Shown: positions 1 through 8,408 of the stretch, piece by piece
Layout of the letters: each line of letters begins with the position of its first letter
Numbering within the stretch: the stretch's first letter is position 1
Origin: a virus
Direction: 5' to 3' (one strand)
DNA length: 26,039 bases
IMG/VR virus record: IMGVR_UViG_3300025646_000313
Location: 1 to 26,039 of that record
Notes under the pieces: model-generated
What the model saw: only the letters and a program-made list of their open reading frames with translations
Database searches by the model: none
What the model was told of the DNA's origin: nothing
Program-made: the position numbers and the translations under genes

Positions 1-75
1 AAAGAAAAGCAAGCTAAAATAAAAGAGTTTAATAGAAAACAAGAAGCTTTGTTATCAAATCTCAAAAAAAGCTAA
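1..75 (+). CDS. C-terminal fragment of a rightward gene
   Basis: Frame 1 is open from the window edge to a TAA at 73-75 and gives 24 residues rich in Lys, Glu and Gln, ending in NLKKS. This looks like the end of a charged, helical or coiled-coil protein. It runs toward the leftward methyltransferase and overlaps its last 14 bases, so the two are convergent. It has the same orientation as the late genes at the right end of the window and could be the last gene of the structural module if the genome is circular or permuted. Too little is visible to name it. Confidence 0.5.
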   Translation, partial: KEKQAKIKEFNRKQEALLSNLKKS

Positions 76-1717
76 TTTGATTTTCAATAAATTCTATTTC
101 ACTCGTATTTAATGCAAAATATTGATTTAACTCGTTATTTATTAATTCAATTCCATTATTTACAGAAATAGAATCATTGTATATACTTTCTGTAATATTA
201 GAAATTTTTTCTTTCATTTGTATGTCTGTAATTATTGGCAATTTTATTAAATCTGATATTTTAATTTGAGGTTGCTTTCCAATAAAATGCCTTATAATTC
301 CTGTTTTTTGAGCTATAAAAGTTGAGATATTTGAATTCAAATATCCACAAATAAACATTAATTCTTTAATAGATTGTTCAGCATTATCTCTAAATGAAAA
401 TACATATAAGCTATTATTTGATGTGCTTAAATTATCATCAAAAGAAGCTACTATATTTTTACAGGATTGCCTTATAAAAACCTTTGGATTTTTAAATACT
501 AATTCATCTCCCATTCCAATTCGCTTTTTATTTTTTACACCTTCCTTTTCTAATTGAACTTTTAAATCATTATTAATTTTATCTTGTAATTTTTTATCAT
601 ATTTTAAGATTTTGTCTGTTTGCATTTTGCAAAACCTATCTTTTAAACTTCTTGAACCAACGTAATATAGATATTCATTTTGATTTAATTGATAACTTTC
701 TGATATTTTATTTACAAATTTATCTTCCATATTCAAAAGCATTGAACAGGTGCGAATTGATTTATTTGGATAAACATTTTGAATTATTGAAGTTTTATTT
801 GTAATTTTTTCAATTATTTGATTTGTTAAATTGCACTCTTCTTTGAAATTAAATTTATATTCAGATTCTTCATTTTTCCAATCTAGAGAGTTTTTGTAGT
901 ATTCATTTTTGGTTTTATAATCTATGATTTTTGTGTTATTGTTATTTTTTATATTTGAAATTTTTAAAATAATCTGTCCACTTGCTACATTATCAAACTC
1001 AGATATATTGTGTATAATTTCACTTATAGCATAGTTATTAAGCAAATATTCTCTTGTATATTTATAGGCAGTCTCATTAAATGCAGCGTCTATTATAAAA
1101 CTTAATTGTCCATTGGGTTTTAAAAAATCTAAAGCATGTTCTAAAAATAACATTACATAATTGATTTTTCCATTTTGAAGATTTTTTGGAAATTGATTAT
1201 ATGTTTTTAAAAAATAATTACGTTCTGCTTCGGTTTTACCTTTATCCCTTCTGCCATAAAGAGTAATATACGGAGGATTTCCAATAACATAGTCAATTTT
1301 ATTTAAGTATTGATATATTTTTGATGTTGATGTTAAATCTTTTTTCTTTGTAAAGTCCACATTAAAAGCATTTAGATTGTAATCTATTTGTTGATTATAC
1401 ATTTTGCAATACAGTTCTTTTATATTGTGTATACATTCATTTAAAATATCTAAATCTATGTCATTAAAGATTAAATTATGTTTTAGAAAATTATCCACTA
1501 TCAATTGTGAATTATAATGATTATGAATTTTTTTCATTAATTCTAAAATCAACATACCGTTTCCACAAGATGGCTCTAAAATGATTTTATTATTAACTTC
1601 TGCAATATCTATAACATTGATAATGTTATTTATAATTTCATTATTTGTTGTAAAAAATATACCATTCTTAGATTTATAATTATTGGATAAATTTTCAGAA
1701 TATTGTACATTTAACAT
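62..1717 (-). CDS. N6-adenine DNA methyltransferase (Eco57I/TaqI-like)
   Basis: 551 residues. It transfers a methyl group from S-adenosylmethionine to adenine N6 in DNA. Motif I for AdoMet binding is LEPSCGNG (residues 47-54) and the catalytic motif IV is NPPY (147-150), in the order of gamma-class adenine methyltransferases. The C-terminal third, with a GYLNSN...GIIRHFIGKQ stretch near residues 455-485, resembles the TaqI/Eco57I target-recognition region. No nuclease domain or restriction partner is seen, so it is probably an orphan methyltransferase protecting phage DNA or marking it. It is the last gene of the long leftward block and follows a 22-codon ORF. Start ATG at 1717 has no Shine-Dalgarno, like most genes here. 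Recognition sequence cannot be read from the protein. Confidence 0.88.
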   Translation of the reverse strand: MLNVQYSENLSNNYKSKNGIFFTTNNEIINNIINVIDIAEVNNKIILEPSCGNGMLILELMKKIHNHYNSQLIVDNFLKHNLIFNDIDLDILNECIHNIKELYCKMYNQQIDYNLNAFNVDFTKKKDLTSTSKIYQYLNKIDYVIGNPPYITLYGRRDKGKTEAERNYFLKTYNQFPKNLQNGKINYVMLFLEHALDFLKPNGQLSFIIDAAFNETAYKYTREYLLNNYAISEIIHNISEFDNVASGQIILKISNIKNNNNTKIIDYKTKNEYYKNSLDWKNEESEYKFNFKEECNLTNQIIEKITNKTSIIQNVYPNKSIRTCSMLLNMEDKFVNKISESYQLNQNEYLYYVGSRSLKDRFCKMQTDKILKYDKKLQDKINNDLKVQLEKEGVKNKKRIGMGDELVFKNPKVFIRQSCKNIVASFDDNLSTSNNSLYVFSFRDNAEQSIKELMFICGYLNSNISTFIAQKTGIIRHFIGKQPQIKISDLIKLPIITDIQMKEKISNITESIYNDSISVNNGIELINNELNQYFALNTSEIEFIENQISFF

Positions 1718-3168: not shown

Positions 3169-3443
3169 TATTCTTCCATATTATTAAAAAGCACTATTCC
3201 TTCACCTACATCGTCAATTACATAAGTAGGAATACATTGATCTTGTAATTTATTTATAGTTTTTTGTTGTAGTTTAGTCGGTTTTTTACCTTCAGCTTTA
3301 AATTCAATAATAATAGTTTTACCATTTCTAAAGAAAATTCTATCAGGAACAGAACGGTTACCTGGACTAACCCACTTATAACATAACCATCCTAAATATT
3401 TAGCATGGTTACAAACTTTAGTTTCAATCTCTGATTCTCTCAT
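3168..3443 (-). CDS. VRR-NUC domain nuclease
   Basis: 91 residues, essentially one stand-alone VRR-NUC domain of the PD-(D/E)XK superfamily. The catalytic pattern is visible: an N-terminal Glu (E4 or E6), then SVPDRIFF with Asp34, then IIEFKA with Glu47 and Lys49, followed by a KLQQ helix. Stand-alone phage VRR-NUC proteins are structure-selective nucleases thought to cut branched DNA such as Holliday junctions. It overlaps the dCMP deaminase gene by 20 bases and the helicase by one base, so it sits in a tightly coupled operon. Function beyond nuclease activity is inferred from the family and context. Confidence 0.88.
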   Translation of the reverse strand: MRESEIETKVCNHAKYLGWLCYKWVSPGNRSVPDRIFFRNGKTIIIEFKAEGKKPTKLQQKTINKLQDQCIPTYVIDDVGEGIVLFNNMEE

Positions 3444-3864
3444 AAATAATATCTACATTTAATTTTTTAAGCATATCTATTCCAGATGTGTCAGCATATT
3501 CATCAGAATAAATAACTGTTTTGCAAGATGTATTTGCGATTAATTTAGCACAAACAATGCAAGGAGATGTTGTAATATAAATTGTGTCAATATCCATTAC
3601 ATTATCACATTGGAGCAAAGCATTTTGTTCTGCGTGTGTTGCCATACATGAATTTAAGCCTTGAGATGATTTTTGTTTTTCACCTCCACAAGGTTTATCT
3701 ATACAATGAGGAAAGTTTTTTGGAACACCGTTATATCCTGTTGCTTTTATATGCCCATGTTTATTTATAATAACACAGCCAACAGAACGTCTTGGACAAG
3801 TTGATCTAGTAGCAACTAATCTTGCTATTTTTAAGAAATATTGATTTTTCGATTCTCTTTGCAT
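3424..3864 (-). CDS. dCMP deaminase
   Basis: 146 residues; zinc-dependent conversion of dCMP to dUMP. Zinc and proton-shuttle residues are clear: HAE at 78-80 and PCxxC at 101-105. The N-terminal STCPRRSVGC segment is typical of the family. A sigma70 promoter lies 39 bases upstream of the start (3903-3931) and the downstream VRR-NUC gene overlaps it. Next to a hydroxymethylase and a MazG-like enzyme it would reshape the pyrimidine nucleotide pool. If the hydroxymethylase uses dCMP the two enzymes would compete for substrate; if it uses dUMP they would work in series. That makes this gene relevant to which base is modified. Confidence 0.92.
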   Translation of the reverse strand: MQRESKNQYFLKIARLVATRSTCPRRSVGCVIINKHGHIKATGYNGVPKNFPHCIDKPCGGEKQKSSQGLNSCMATHAEQNALLQCDNVMDIDTIYITTSPCIVCAKLIANTSCKTVIYSDEYADTSGIDMLKKLNVDIIYERIRD

Positions 3865-3902
3865 AATTTTATCATTTTAAGATTATATTTTTAAACATTT
3901 TA

Positions 3903-3931
3903 ATTATAAAGCCTTATTTTTTAAAAGTAAA
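3903..3931 (-). promoter_or_regulatory. Sigma70 promoter for the dCMP deaminase operon
   Basis: On the minus strand, -35 TTTACT, a 17-base spacer and -10 TATAAT, reading toward the deaminase start at 3864. The upstream flank (AACTAAAATTTATTTT, fused to the stop of the preceding gene) is the same as at several other promoters in the window. Confidence 0.75.
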
Positions 3932-3938
3932 ATAAATT

Positions 3939-5060
3939 TTAGTTATTGTAAATTAATTGCTTATATTCTTCTACAGTTAAATTATTTTCTTTTAAAACTT
4001 TATCATCTGAAGGATGTTCAGGTTTATTGAAAGTGTCAATCAAACCTAGCTCTAACATCTTTTTTTGTCTTCCAAAAGGATGGTCAATTATATTACTGCT
4101 ATTCCATGTTGAATCTAAACAAAGATGGTCATAATCTGATCCTGGTTTAATATAGTTTTCAATCCATCTGATAAAATCACAAGCAATATCTTCAGAATTA
4201 TATGGAACTGCTCCTGTGTCATTATAAATTTTATCTGTTAAAGCATCAAGAAAATCTAATTGCTTCATTCCTTTAGGTCTTTCTGCTAAATAATTTAAAC
4301 ATTCTATTGCATTTTTACCATAAAAGAAATGTGATTCTAAATTTATGAATCTAGGAAAAAAGTCTGCAATGTCAGCTAAAGTTGCCGCATATTGGAATCT
4401 AAATACTCTAAAACCTCTTGCTTTATTGAATCTTTCTAAAAATCCCATTAATGTTCTGAAGTTTTTAGCTGATCCTCTTTGCAAATAATTGGCAAACTCT
4501 TTACATAATCCAGGTAAATGTTCACACATAAAATAGTCTCCTCCTAATTTATAATCTCCTTCAGCTTTAGGAAAAGGTGCTATTTGATAGCCTACGCTTG
4601 TAAATTTAGGTCCTTTAAATTCTTTTATTACTTTAACCATATCTTTTACAGAATCGCAAGTATGAAAATGTAAAAGAATAGAATTATAATAACCAGATGG
4701 ATTTTTAGCATAATTAATGCCTGATCCTGTAAGTCTATGAACAAAAAAGACAAATAGCCATTCTGGTAAATCCCATAATTCTGTATGAAATTTATCAACT
4801 ATTTCTTTTCTCCATTCAGGCATTTTTGCTTTATATGGATGAGTTTCATAATCATGCCATATATCTAAGATTAATTGAGTAAATCCTGCATATTTTCTTG
4901 CACATACATCATAAAGATAAACATTCTTTATTAAATCATCATTCCATGGAGTTTCTTTATATGGAACTAATCCTAAATTGCAATTTTCATGCTGCCATTT
5001 AGAAATTTTAGCGTAATAAATAAATTCTTCGTAATATTTTGTTGTCTGTAAATTATGCAT
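3939..5060 (-). CDS. Candidate amino-acid:DNA transferase (aGPT-PPlase-like)
   Basis: 373 residues from the ATG at 5060. A longer frame exists from a TTG at 5102, but it would overlap the upstream gene by 50 bases instead of 8. The protein is aromatic-rich and helical, with a PWNDDLIKNVY segment near the N-terminus, GFLERFNKARGFRVFRFQY in the middle, and DFFPRFINLESHFFYG after it. This layout resembles the alpha-glutamyl/putrescinyl-thymine pyrophosphorylase family, which in phages such as ViI and M6 attaches amino acids to an activated hydroxymethyl base in DNA. The match is from memory of family patterns, not a search. Context supports it: immediately upstream are a PLP enzyme, an SGNH-like protein and a pyrimidine hydroxymethylase, all leftward and nearly without gaps. 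The P-loop kinase that activates hydroxymethyluracil in those systems is not in this window. Confidence 0.5.
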   Translation of the reverse strand: MHNLQTTKYYEEFIYYAKISKWQHENCNLGLVPYKETPWNDDLIKNVYLYDVCARKYAGFTQLILDIWHDYETHPYKAKMPEWRKEIVDKFHTELWDLPEWLFVFFVHRLTGSGINYAKNPSGYYNSILLHFHTCDSVKDMVKVIKEFKGPKFTSVGYQIAPFPKAEGDYKLGGDYFMCEHLPGLCKEFANYLQRGSAKNFRTLMGFLERFNKARGFRVFRFQYAATLADIADFFPRFINLESHFFYGKNAIECLNYLAERPKGMKQLDFLDALTDKIYNDTGAVPYNSEDIACDFIRWIENYIKPGSDYDHLCLDSTWNSSNIIDHPFGRQKKMLELGLIDTFNKPEHPSDDKVLKENNLTVEEYKQLIYNN

Positions 5061-5979
5061 AGTCAAAAGCTGATTGATCTCCCCATTCTCTAACTCCATC
5101 AATATCTTTCCAATTAGATATTTCTGAAAGTCTATTTTCTATTTGTTTATCTGATCCTACGTTTATAAATATAGCACCAGGTTTTCCTTCATCAATAAAT
5201 CTTTTATATGCTTTTGCATCATAAGTAGTTGTAGTATTAAACTCAGGCATATATTCTGATTTTTGATAAAAAGATTTATGATAAGACACAACATTAGCAT
5301 TTCCTTTTTCACCTTCTTTAATATTTCTTGCTACAGCAACGCCTTTAGCATCAGCATTAGGCCAACCTATTTGTAAAGCTCTTATCATAGTTCCTGTTGA
5401 AACTGCGCAATAAAATTCTGTAGGTTCACCATAAATTAATCGATGGTTTTCACACATATTTATTAATCCTGCAGTAACTTCAGGAGTATTTGCTAACCCG
5501 AAAGGAAGAGCAATACCATTAAATTTTTCTGCCCAATCACGAATCCAAGAATTTAAACAAGGCATAGCTGGAATCTTAACGAATCTTAAATCACAATTCT
5601 TATAAGCTAAAACAACAGCTTGGTGAGGCGTAACTTGTTTTGATGCTGCTGCAAAGAATACAGCTTTTTTATTATATATTTCTGAAAGCATAGCTATAGC
5701 TTCAGGAGCATGACCTACTCTTGGAGAAGCATAGCCTAATAAATTTGAATTTGTTTCAGCAATAAACTTTTCTGCCCCATAAGCTTTTAGTCCACATGGA
5801 CCTTTAGCAAAGTCTAAAATAAAAATATCATCTCTTTCAGGAGATGGGTAAAATTCAGGCATAGGAAGTTTTGATTTAAACTTTCCATATAAATTCAAAT
5901 AATATTCTCTACATTCTCCAAATTGTATATTATGGAAAAGTTGATCTTTATTTTTATTTGATTCAGTTATCTCATACAT
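5053..5979 (-). CDS. Fold-type-II PLP-dependent enzyme (tryptophan synthase beta/ACC deaminase-like)
   Basis: 308 residues. A GLKAYGAEKF segment (63-72) sits where the family has its Schiff-base lysine (Lys65 or Lys71). It is followed by a substrate loop around 83-120 and a STGTMIRALQIGWPNAD stretch (194-210) that fits the glycine-rich loop binding the PLP phosphate, then KGVAVAR. This pattern is typical of the tryptophan synthase beta superfamily, in a diverged form. PLP enzymes occur in phage thymine-hypermodification clusters, where they rework the amino acid linked to the base, for example by decarboxylation. The gene starts one base after the SGNH gene stops and overlaps the transferase-like gene by 8 bases. 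An unrelated role in amino-acid metabolism is possible. Confidence 0.6.
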   Translation of the reverse strand: MYEITESNKNKDQLFHNIQFGECREYYLNLYGKFKSKLPMPEFYPSPERDDIFILDFAKGPCGLKAYGAEKFIAETNSNLLGYASPRVGHAPEAIAMLSEIYNKKAVFFAAASKQVTPHQAVVLAYKNCDLRFVKIPAMPCLNSWIRDWAEKFNGIALPFGLANTPEVTAGLINMCENHRLIYGEPTEFYCAVSTGTMIRALQIGWPNADAKGVAVARNIKEGEKGNANVVSYHKSFYQKSEYMPEFNTTTTYDAKAYKRFIDEGKPGAIFINVGSDKQIENRLSEISNWKDIDGVREWGDQSAFDYA

Positions 5980-5980
5980 T

Positions 5981-6976
5981 TTAATTCCAATTATAAATTG
6001 ATCGATAATATTTAGGAGCTATATGCACAGATGAGTGTAATTCCATTATTTCTCTTGCATATTCATCTCCTGGCATTGTATACCATTGTTTAGGCGGTTC
6101 TATAAGATCAAAGTCAAAACAATAATCGCTAAGATATTTTATAAAGTCAAATGTAAATTTTAATCTTTCCCATCTTGCTCCATAAAAATTTTGTCCTTCA
6201 AATTGCCCTGTTTTAGGTAATTTTCTTAATTCATGTTCTATAGGAACAGGAGCACAAACTTTTATAGGAATCTTATAAAAGTTCTGCCATTTAATTATTT
6301 CTTTAGCATACAAATCAGCAAACTCTTTTGCAGTAAAAGTTTTTAATCTTAATAAATGGAATCTTATGTCAATTGATCCTAAACATAATGTTATTTCTTT
6401 AATATTTTTAGGTTGATTTTGATAATGTAAAAATGAATCTAATCCAGATTTACAAATTACACTATATAATGTTTTTCCATTCAATCTTGTAATTGCTTGA
6501 TCTTTAGTTGAAAATGCTAATGTATGGCTATCACCTATAATCCATTTATTTAACTTAAGCGATTCCATTGGAAGATATTTTGCTTTATTCAATATATTTT
6601 CAAATTTTTCTAAGAAGTCAAAATCAACCATTTTTGAAGTTGTTTTTGCACCAATTCGTTTTTCTATTTGAGAAATATAATTACAATCTTTTATTTTCCA
6701 ATCTAAAGAAAATAATTTAGCTTCATTATCTACTGCATCCATTAAGTTATAGCAATTTGAAACTATATCATCATTGAATCCTCCAAATAAGTTCAAAGAT
6801 CCATGAAAATTAACCCCATGGTCAATATAAATATTTTCATAGTCTAATAAATCAGTTTCTTTTGTTGCTATGTCAGCATCTAGTCTTTGCGCCCACATCA
6901 TAGCCCATCCTCTAATATGGCTTTTTTCTGATTTAGGAATTGGAGTAAAAGGATTATAAATTACAGATTTTTTCAT
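5981..6976 (-). CDS. SGNH-like hydrolase or acyltransferase
   Basis: 331 residues. A GDSH block (WIIGDSHTLAF, near 145-155) carries the candidate nucleophile Ser. A later LCLGSIDIRFHL (near 197-208) corresponds to the GxND-type block, and HSSVHIAPKYY near the C-terminus carries the His of the last SGNH block, though the usual Asp of DxxH is replaced. The first 140 residues match nothing I know. SGNH proteins are esterases or acyl-transfer enzymes. Its place between the hydroxymethylase and the PLP enzyme, with one base to the latter, suggests a step in DNA base modification such as acylation or deacylation. The start is ATG in an AATGATAAAA-type leader shared with other genes. It could instead act on host envelope sugars, but the operon argues against that. 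Confidence 0.55.
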   Translation of the reverse strand: MKKSVIYNPFTPIPKSEKSHIRGWAMMWAQRLDADIATKETDLLDYENIYIDHGVNFHGSLNLFGGFNDDIVSNCYNLMDAVDNEAKLFSLDWKIKDCNYISQIEKRIGAKTTSKMVDFDFLEKFENILNKAKYLPMESLKLNKWIIGDSHTLAFSTKDQAITRLNGKTLYSVICKSGLDSFLHYQNQPKNIKEITLCLGSIDIRFHLLRLKTFTAKEFADLYAKEIIKWQNFYKIPIKVCAPVPIEHELRKLPKTGQFEGQNFYGARWERLKFTFDFIKYLSDYCFDFDLIEPPKQWYTMPGDEYAREIMELHSSVHIAPKYYRSIYNWN

Positions 6977-6995
6977 TTTATTTTTATTAATTTTA

Positions 6996-7652
6996 TCATT
7001 TTATTAGATCAAAATGTCTAGGGTAAATATGAAGAGTTGCAGCATTCCAAAATAAATGCCCAAAACGTAAATGTTTATAAGTCTTCTTTAATTGTTTATA
7101 TGCTAAGTCATGAACAAAATGATGCCAATAAGAATCGTTTTTATAACCAAATATTGCGTCATTACTTCTCATATAAACATGATAATAAAGATGATCGTTT
7201 CTTATCATTAATTGAACACCATATGTGCATATAAAATCATTCATACCGTCTCTTACAGCATCTGCATGCATAGATGGGCGAATATAAATCATAGTTGCTT
7301 GTCTTGATAATTTACCATTTTCTAATTTAGCTATGGCATTTTCAAATTGTCTTCCATTTTCTTCTGAGAATATACACCAACCATAATTTGAGTTTATCCA
7401 ACCATCTTTTGTTGCAACTTCTTTCCATATAGAAGGGATTTTGCCTTCTATATCATTTATATTTCTACTTTGACTTAAATACCATTTTACTTCTGATTTA
7501 GCATATTTTTCATTTAATTCTCCAAATATTACTAAATCATTAGAAATAAATGAAGCATTTAATATCTCATAAGTTCCATTATCAGAAAGCAATTTATTTT
7601 CTTTAAGTCTTATAAATTCTTTTCTTATATGTTCTACATTATATCGTTCCAT
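6996..7652 (-). CDS. Pyrimidine-nucleotide hydroxymethylase (T4 gp42-like)
   Basis: 218 residues of the thymidylate synthase superfamily, most like T4 dCMP hydroxymethylase. It transfers a hydroxymethyl group from methylenetetrahydrofolate and water to C5 of a pyrimidine monophosphate. Visible landmarks are INSNYGW (86-92), catalytic Cys142 in DFICTYG, MRSNDAIFG (161-169) and Asp173 in YKND. Cys142 and Asp173 are 31 residues apart, as are Cys148 and Asp179 of T4 gp42. Asp at this site favours cytosine, whereas thymidylate synthases have Asn. The protein ends soon after PRHF, so it lacks about 28 residues found at the T4 C-terminus. It heads the modification cassette, and its ATG overlaps the DUF6378 stop. 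dUMP as substrate cannot be excluded. Confidence 0.88.
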   Translation of the reverse strand: MERYNVEHIRKEFIRLKENKLLSDNGTYEILNASFISNDLVIFGELNEKYAKSEVKWYLSQSRNINDIEGKIPSIWKEVATKDGWINSNYGWCIFSEENGRQFENAIAKLENGKLSRQATMIYIRPSMHADAVRDGMNDFICTYGVQLMIRNDHLYYHVYMRSNDAIFGYKNDSYWHHFVHDLAYKQLKKTYKHLRFGHLFWNAATLHIYPRHFDLIK

Positions 7653-7957
7653 TATTTTAAAGTACTTATATTAGACAAATTTATTCCGAATTCTTTATCT
7701 TTTAAAAAGTCTTCTAAAAGTTTTGCATAACCTACTATATCATGGATATTATCAATATAATTAGGATCACCACAAACACATCTTGCTATCTTATGAAATA
7801 TCATATGGAAAGCTTCAATATGCTCTTCTTCTAATAAATCATAATTAGGTGCCTGTTTTAACACATTACAAAGTCGTTGTGTTATTTTAGCATTATGTTC
7901 AAAAGATCCATATCTAGATCCTCTTTCTTTTAACGTTTTATCTATTTTATTTGTCAT
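7652..7957 (-). CDS. DUF6378 family protein
   Basis: 101 residues from the ATG at 7957; a TTG two codons earlier is less likely. The pattern RGSRYGSF near the N-terminus, then HMIFHKIARCVCGDPNY and DIVGYAKLLEDFL, is that of phage DUF6378 proteins. These are small helical proteins often found beside nucleotide metabolism genes and possibly related to MazG-type folds. The biochemical role is unknown. It overlaps the MazG-like gene by 11 bases and the hydroxymethylase by one, so it is translated as part of the same operon. Confidence 0.7.
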   Translation of the reverse strand: MTNKIDKTLKERGSRYGSFEHNAKITQRLCNVLKQAPNYDLLEEEHIEAFHMIFHKIARCVCGDPNYIDNIHDIVGYAKLLEDFLKDKEFGINLSNISTLK

Positions 7958-8408
7958 TTTCAATTTTATTTAGTTTATTTTCAGAGGTTAATTTTTCTAT
8001 TGGATCATTCATAAATTCAAATAATGTCATTTGTTTAGGCTTATCTTCAACTAAATCGCTTAGGTCAGGAGCAGTCCAACCTTTAGGCTTAACTAAATCT
8101 AATTGGAATGATCCTCGTTTTTGATTTTGCCCTATTTCTTTTTGACAATTAGCAATCATAACTCTTTCAAAAGCTTCTTCAAAAACTTCAAGCATACCTT
8201 GTCTTTCAGCAGTTCCGAAAGCAAATACAACAAGATCAACTAAAGCATCTAATTGATCTTCTTTAGTTTCAGCTTCTTTGTATTCATCCAATTCTTCTTG
8301 CATTGCGCAAATTCTAAACTTTTTTTCTTCATCAGAAAATTTTACTTTTTCTGAGGTTATACCAAATTTGGTATGCATTTCTTTAACTAATTTTAACATT
8401 GTATTCAT
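7947..8408 (-). CDS. MazG-like NTP pyrophosphohydrolase
   Basis: 153 residues. The N-terminal 90 residues have the all-alpha NTP-pyrophosphatase signature: acidic EELDEYKEAE (about 38-47) followed by QLDALVDLVVFAFG (about 52-65), which supply the metal-binding Glu and Asp residues. A KRGSFQLDLVKPKGW segment follows, as in other phage MazG-like proteins. Members hydrolyse (d)NTPs to monophosphates. Beside a hydroxymethylase, a plausible job is to remove the unmodified dCTP or dUTP and supply monophosphate substrate. The substrate is inferred only. Its last 11 bases overlap the DUF6378 gene. Confidence 0.72.
   Translation of the reverse strand: MNTMLKLVKEMHTKFGITSEKVKFSDEEKKFRICAMQEELDEYKEAETKEDQLDALVDLVVFAFGTAERQGMLEVFEEAFERVMIANCQKEIGQNQKRGSFQLDLVKPKGWTAPDLSDLVEDKPKQMTLFEFMNDPIEKLTSENKLNKIENDK

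Follow-up and report, generated by a model that had tools for sequence, protein, structure and literature searches.

Amino-acid-based hypermodification of DNA is reportedly established for thymidine through the work of Lee, Weigele and colleagues, and the signature of this chemistry is an ADDT-group protein found together with a pyridoxal phosphate (PLP) enzyme. The thymidine cassette of phages M6 and SN1 comprises a hydroxymethylase, the kinase HMUDK, ADDT, a PLP enzyme and a radical SAM protein. For phage cytosine, the decorations described within the literature surveyed are sugars and carbamoyl. Here, we analysed a stretch of 26,039 bases (the window; GC content 26.8%) from an uncultivated virus, IMG/VR record IMGVR_UViG_3300025646_000313, which carries a compact block of seven genes. 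We consider it fairly probable that this block is a phage cytosine-hypermodification cassette, in which formation of 5-hydroxymethylcytosine (hmC) would be followed by transferase and PLP chemistry, with an SGNH-fold enzyme as an added step. The decoration of hmC is probably an amino-acid-derived group. The seven open reading frames (ORFs) all lie on the minus strand and are given below from position 8408 downwards, together with the codons of the residues discussed in the text (E, expect value).

7947..8408, minus strand: MazG-like nucleotide pyrophosphohydrolase (PF01503, PRA-PH/MazG, 22 bits for a cut-off of 21.3, E 2.3e-4; phrog_671, 7e-19)
7652..7963, minus strand: DUF6378 protein, accessory (PF19905, 4.6e-6, barely above the cut-off)
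6996..7652, minus strand: predicted dCMP 5-hydroxymethylase of the T4 gp42 type (PF00303, 1.8e-13)
7227..7229, minus strand: codon of the hydroxymethylase catalytic Cys142
7134..7136, minus strand: codon of the hydroxymethylase Asp173, dCMP-versus-dUMP determinant
5981..6976, minus strand: SGNH-fold esterase/acyltransferase-like protein, 331 aa
6527..6529, minus strand: codon of the SGNH Ser150 in the GDSH motif, putative nucleophile
6023..6025, minus strand: codon of the SGNH His318, putative catalytic His
5053..5979, minus strand: predicted fold-type-II PLP enzyme
5785..5787, minus strand: codon of Lys65 in the PLP protein, putative Schiff-base lysine
3939..5060, minus strand: transferase-like (aGPT-like) all-helical protein, 373 aa
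3424..3864, minus strand: dCMP deaminase (PF00383, 4.8e-21; phrog_174, 1.6e-44)

The hydroxymethylase and the modified base

The hydroxymethylase of the window matches the T4 deoxycytidylate hydroxymethylase (PDB 1b49) over residues 5-217 with an E of 1.3e-53, and our phylogenetic tree places it inside the T4 gp42 group, in agreement with the gp42-like enzyme proposed in a preliminary description of the locus. The catalytic Cys142 and Asp173 are both kept in 35/35 non-redundant relatives from related cassettes. In the thymidylate synthase (TS) family, the presence of Asn or Asp at one position (177 in the Escherichia coli TS) sets the preference for dUMP or dCMP, respectively (PMC8670742). True thymidylate synthases included as controls carry Asn at this determinant (GLPFN), and Asp is also found there in the T4 and 44RR-type enzymes, in an alignment that includes T4 gp42. 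Some of the Asp-bearing enzymes among the 35 relatives do not resemble gp42 in their sequence (RSSDLFLGIPYD in L011/L016 and RSIDLWYGFGND in L086), and a further Asp-bearing enzyme is present in the 256-kb record G004 (RSNDIFYGLTFD). The Asp thus recurs in separate TS-derived lineages, represented by L011/L016, L086 and G004.

Taken together, Asp173, the gp42 match and the tree make dCMP the very likely substrate of this enzyme and hmC the very likely first modified base. The preliminary description had compared the locus with phages ViI and M6, which implied hydroxymethyluracil; Asp at the dCMP determinant in all 35 relatives contradicts this implication, and the base of the cassette is most likely cytosine.

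Organization and linkage of the cassette genes

The four core genes (hydroxymethylase, SGNH, PLP and transferase-like) are separated by one 8-base overlap and by spacings of 1 and 19 bases. The two genes upstream of this core, encoding the DUF6378 and MazG-like proteins, overlap, and the deaminase gene is more distant, 74 bases away. Positions, strand, overlaps and gaps are as originally described for the block at 3424-8408, and the MazG-like, DUF6378 and dCMP deaminase genes said to flank the core all have Pfam matches, so that their assignments, judged by profile scores, are secure or marginally above cut-off. The transferase-like, PLP and SGNH proteins of the window have no Pfam match above cut-off. 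A few genes away from the cassette, the window encodes an Eco57I-type methylase-like protein (62-1717, minus strand; PF07669, 2.9e-16).

Scans of IMG/VR yielded at least 258 candidate stretches with relatives of the aGPT-like protein and at least 459 with SGNH relatives. The loci of the SGNH scan were not selected for partners, and 25 dereplicated viral loci with enough flank were counted. Within 5 kb, the aGPT-like gene is present in 25/25 of them, the PLP gene in 23, the hydroxymethylase and the deaminase genes in 21 each and the MazG gene in 19, and the cassette partners are always on one strand. Linkage is looser in the aGPT scan (SGNH in 10 of 16 loci, PLP in 8 and hydroxymethylase in 7) because the genes are split in some large phages. 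The 174-kb record G001, for instance, carries the aGPT-like gene apart from an SGNH-PLP pair located elsewhere in the same record, and we consequently rejected the idea that ‘aGPT-only’ loci form a separate system.

Gene order varies between groups (SGNH-PLP-aGPT; aGPT-F3-SGNH-PLP; SGNH-F3-PLP-aGPT; and others, F3 being a family of unknown function), indicating that the association survives rearrangement. Since divergent viral contigs contain collinear copies of the block (identity as low as ~33-50%) and it recurs in several gene orders, its composition is not due to chance. In some large uncultivated phages, a UDP-galactopyranose mutase gene (phrog_9677) stands beside the cassette (L082:14311-15417 (+), L025:3773-4837 (+)). 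No homologue of the aGPT-like protein was found in 50,697 phage records of INPHARED (tblastn, two divergent queries), and a scan of 84,980 species genomes confirmed no relative, including of the aGPT-like protein.

Predicted decorating enzymes

The AlphaFold 2 (AF2) model of the 373-aa protein has a predicted local distance difference test (pLDDT) score of 90.2. Outside its own family, Foldseek searches of BFVD matched this model to aGPT-Pplase1 (E 1e-3, probability 1.00), ADDT (2.2e-3) and the HMUDK-helical proteins of PhiW-14 and phiRSL1 (1e-2 to 2e-2 for the two phages, with 1.3e-2 for HMUDK_hel of PhiW-14); for named members of the fold group overall, probabilities range from 0.93 to 1.00 and E from 1e-3 to 0.15, with a modest template modelling (TM) score of ~0.4. 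The closest family member (48% identity) is named an ADDT-domain protein in UniProt, and 27 residues are invariant across 50 sequences of the family. None of these 50 relatives has a Pfam match that would name it (PF18724, 0/50). These data make a moderate case that the protein belongs to the ADDT / aGPT-PPlase / HMUDK-helical fold group, which is a case for the fold group and not for the reaction; its transferase class is predicted from the model. The aGPT-PPlase-like transferase first proposed at 3939-5060 is thus upheld as to fold group, within which the structure search lands, and finds no support by sequence.

Two other families were observed around this gene. Almost every locus whose aGPT-like gene has no SGNH/PLP neighbours contains F3 (333 aa; L072:11148-12149 (+) and ~90 relatives), as do ~40 of the other loci. 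F3 faintly resembles the aGPT-like protein (hhalign E 0.0014, although the probability is 18), and may be a second member of its fold group. Many large phages, in which modified DNA is expected, carry an HhH-GPD DNA glycosylase gene (L065:9196-9972 (+); PF00730, 1.4e-7) next to the aGPT-like gene.

The PLP protein corresponds to a ‘threonine dehydratase’ family in PHROGs (phrog_7093, 3e-41). Although the window protein itself does not match PF00291, its relatives approach or exceed the cut-off of 35 bits (L013 25 bits; Erythrobacter phage R6L 40.6 bits; Microcystis phage Mae-JY30 46.6 bits). Lys65, the S194-T195-G196 phosphate loop and R218 are conserved in 40/40 PLP proteins, and Lys65 is invariant in SN1_023 and Mae-JY30 too. 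SN1_023 is the PLP protein in the known thymidine-modification cassette of the M6-like phage SN1 (PMC9476957). It matches the cassette PLP profile with 18.5 bits, the best of 2,000 shuffles reaching 2.8, and shares YDxK and FxN elements with the cassette proteins. A search of the PDB with the PLP profile gave nothing useful. The fold-type-II PLP enzyme of the preliminary description is borne out; it looks intact, and its predicted substrate is the appended group or the donor of that group. Related PLP genes also occur in other settings: in R6L, gp1 (L022:10744-13175 (+)) is a fusion protein that combines a DNA methylase domain with a PLP domain from the same subfamily, and in Mae-JY30 the PLP gene is preceded by two ParB/sulfiredoxin genes. 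Both arrangements possibly represent another PLP-dependent DNA modification.

The 331-aa protein, a member of phrog_13881 (unknown function; 2.5e-57), was likewise modelled with high confidence (pLDDT 91.5). Foldseek matched its model to SGNH esterases such as the isoamyl acetate esterase 3mil (E 1e-4, probability 1.00); a match to D-ornithine decarboxylase was disregarded (TM ~0.2). The GDSH motif with Ser150 and His318 are conserved in 52/52 relatives, which, with the match to 3mil, substantiates the SGNH-like protein announced previously. Block III is atypical (G-[S/N]-I-D, with Asn in 13/52), the His lies within SSVH and not DxxH, and there is an additional N-terminal domain of ~140 aa. 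By its model, the protein is SGNH-fold and esterase/acyltransferase-like.

This protein is homologous to the N-terminal part of ORF233c of Aeromonas phage 44RR2.8t, an uncharacterised 795-aa protein (L024:5998-8385 (+)) in which the SGNH domain is fused to 460 aa. The fused domain weakly matches HMUDK_hel (PF18723, E 9e-4), and the SGNH protein of phage AS4 is likewise fused to a weakly matching domain. We considered ORF233c as a Rosetta stone linking SGNH to HMUDK_hel, but the similarity is suggestive only (6.5 bits versus 6.0 for the best shuffle) and was not used as proof. Aeromonas T4-like phages have the SGNH homologue on its own, and a gp42 carrying the Asp is encoded by each of the three that were examined.

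Proposed pathway, alternatives and related systems

The genes of the cassette, their linkage, their catalytic residues and the dCMP determinant are established by sequence. From these, we infer an order of steps, a donor, a product and a role for the SGNH protein. In a first committed step, the gp42-type enzyme would convert dCMP to hydroxymethyl-dCMP, and hmC would enter phage DNA during replication. The MazG-like protein, which plausibly clears dCTP or dUTP, and the deaminase, which would adjust the dCMP/dUMP pools, could assist by lowering competing dCTP/dCMP. Decoration would follow replication: at the C5 methylene of hmC, the 373-aa protein would attach a small nucleophile, for which an amino acid is the most likely candidate. 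The PLP enzyme would then either remodel this amino acid once attached, decarboxylation being one example, or prepare its donor. The SGNH enzyme may add or remove an acyl ester, and in doing so either substitute for a kinase in activating the hydroxymethyl group or cap or trim the product.

Several observations weigh against this pathway. A kinase of the HMUDK type (PF18748), acting on 5-hydroxymethyldeoxyuridine, was not found in the window or in 22 cassette records, which are possibly incomplete; the same search finds SN1, and the result fits the earlier remark that no P-loop DNA kinase is visible. The structural matches of the 373-aa protein are modest, as noted above, and HMMER, hhalign and shuffled controls gave no sequence or profile link between it and ADDT (PF18724) or HMUDK_hel; the PF18724 search has no match in cassette records and is positive in SN1. 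Some records, G001 and G003 among them, yielded no PF00303 enzyme, but they may be fragments. Finally, the cultured Aeromonas phages checked have the SGNH homologue but no recognisable aGPT-like or PLP genes, so that the SGNH protein may work without these partners.

Either a kinase that escaped recognition is encoded elsewhere or the hydroxymethyl group is activated differently. As it is strictly linked to the cassette and no kinase was found, the SGNH protein is a natural candidate for an acyl step. One could tentatively imagine, as a version that we hold to be a good deal less probable than the cassette itself, that an SGNH acyltransferase esterifies hmC instead of a P-loop kinase, the ADDT-fold enzyme displaces the ester with an amino acid, and the PLP enzyme remodels it.

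It is also conceivable, if unlikely, that the decoration of hmC is sugar-based. In this reading, the SGNH protein would O-acylate or de-acylate the sugar, while the substrate of the transferase-like and PLP proteins would be the sugar or its donor. Glucose and arabinose are among the known cytosine decorations (PMC13390438). As a further point against an amino-acid-derived group, L082/L089 have a family-2 glycosyltransferase next to the cassette in addition to the UDP-galactopyranose mutase. In Aeromonas phage 25, a mutase of the same family is encoded at a distance of two genes from the SGNH homologue. These genes suggest that certain versions of the modification contain a sugar. However, the cassette of the window neither includes nor adjoins a recognised glycosyltransferase, sugar aminotransferases are not among the fold-type-II PLP enzymes, and the fold of the transferase-like protein is not that of a glycosyltransferase.

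We regard as improbable a role of the aGPT-like protein in binding DNA bases, or as a glycosylase-like protein, in counter-defence or repair of hmC DNA, with hmC being altered by the SGNH and PLP proteins only. Its PDB matches, which are weak, are indeed HhH 8-oxoguanine glycosylases (E 0.26), and the HhH-GPD gene is its neighbour in several large phages. Nevertheless, the ADDT/aGPT-PPlase/HMUDK group is matched at higher probability, and a biosynthetic PLP gene is linked to that of the aGPT-like protein.

The M6/ViI pathway itself, operating on hydroxymethyluracil, would account for the PLP subfamily common to SN1 and for the ADDT-group fold, but it is very unlikely considering the strictly conserved Asp at the dCMP determinant and the lack of any HMUDK or PF18724 relative in cassette records, though both searches find SN1. 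As for synthesis of 5-hydroxy-dCMP with decoration on the C5-OH, as in RB69-type phages, the synthases involved are homologous to gp42 (PMC13390438), but we rejected this scheme as hardly credible because the RB69 enzyme has no GYxND motif and branches outside the gp42 group that includes the window enzyme, on a long branch (long branches leave its exact placement unsure).

If the proposed cytosine cassette is real, chemistry so far characterised on thymidine has also been built on cytosine, independently of glycosylation. Searches of the literature, of limited coverage, found nothing on a role of SGNH or PLP proteins in hmC DNA and no description of an amino-acid-derived cytosine; for cytosine, such a route of decoration is apparently without earlier description. 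Given the many candidate stretches in IMG/VR, the modified base may be common. It may affect sensitivity to restriction, Type IV and CRISPR systems, complicate sequencing and supply new DNA-modifying enzymes.

Among described systems, the cassette shares with the T4 gp42/hmC system a dCMP hydroxymethylase, a dCMP deaminase and the logic of a nucleotide pyrophosphohydrolase, but it has transferase-like, PLP and SGNH genes where T4 has a glucosyltransferase, none being recognised here. It resembles the 5-carbamoyloxymethylcytosine system found by MetaGPA in combining a dCMP-type TS with a non-glycosyl decorating enzyme in uncultivated phages; in that system, the decoration is made by a carbamoyltransferase and the paper mentions no PLP or SGNH protein (PMC8670742). 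Phage 44RR2.8t, whose genome encodes gp42 besides ORF233c, differs from the window in that no PLP or aGPT-like gene was found in it. Compared with M6/SN1, the cassette acts most likely on cytosine and not uracil, has an extra SGNH protein and a dCMP deaminase, and lacks a detectable HMUDK kinase, an ADDT at the level of PF18724 and a visible radical SAM protein. We do not count it as a member of the M6/ViI type because of this difference in base, the negative ADDT profile search and the failure to find a kinase; with cytosine as the base, ViI and M6 are chemical analogues and do not share the same pathway. What M6/SN1 and the window do have in common is a TS-family hydroxymethylase, a protein of the ADDT fold group and a related fold-type-II PLP protein, brought together in one phage block.

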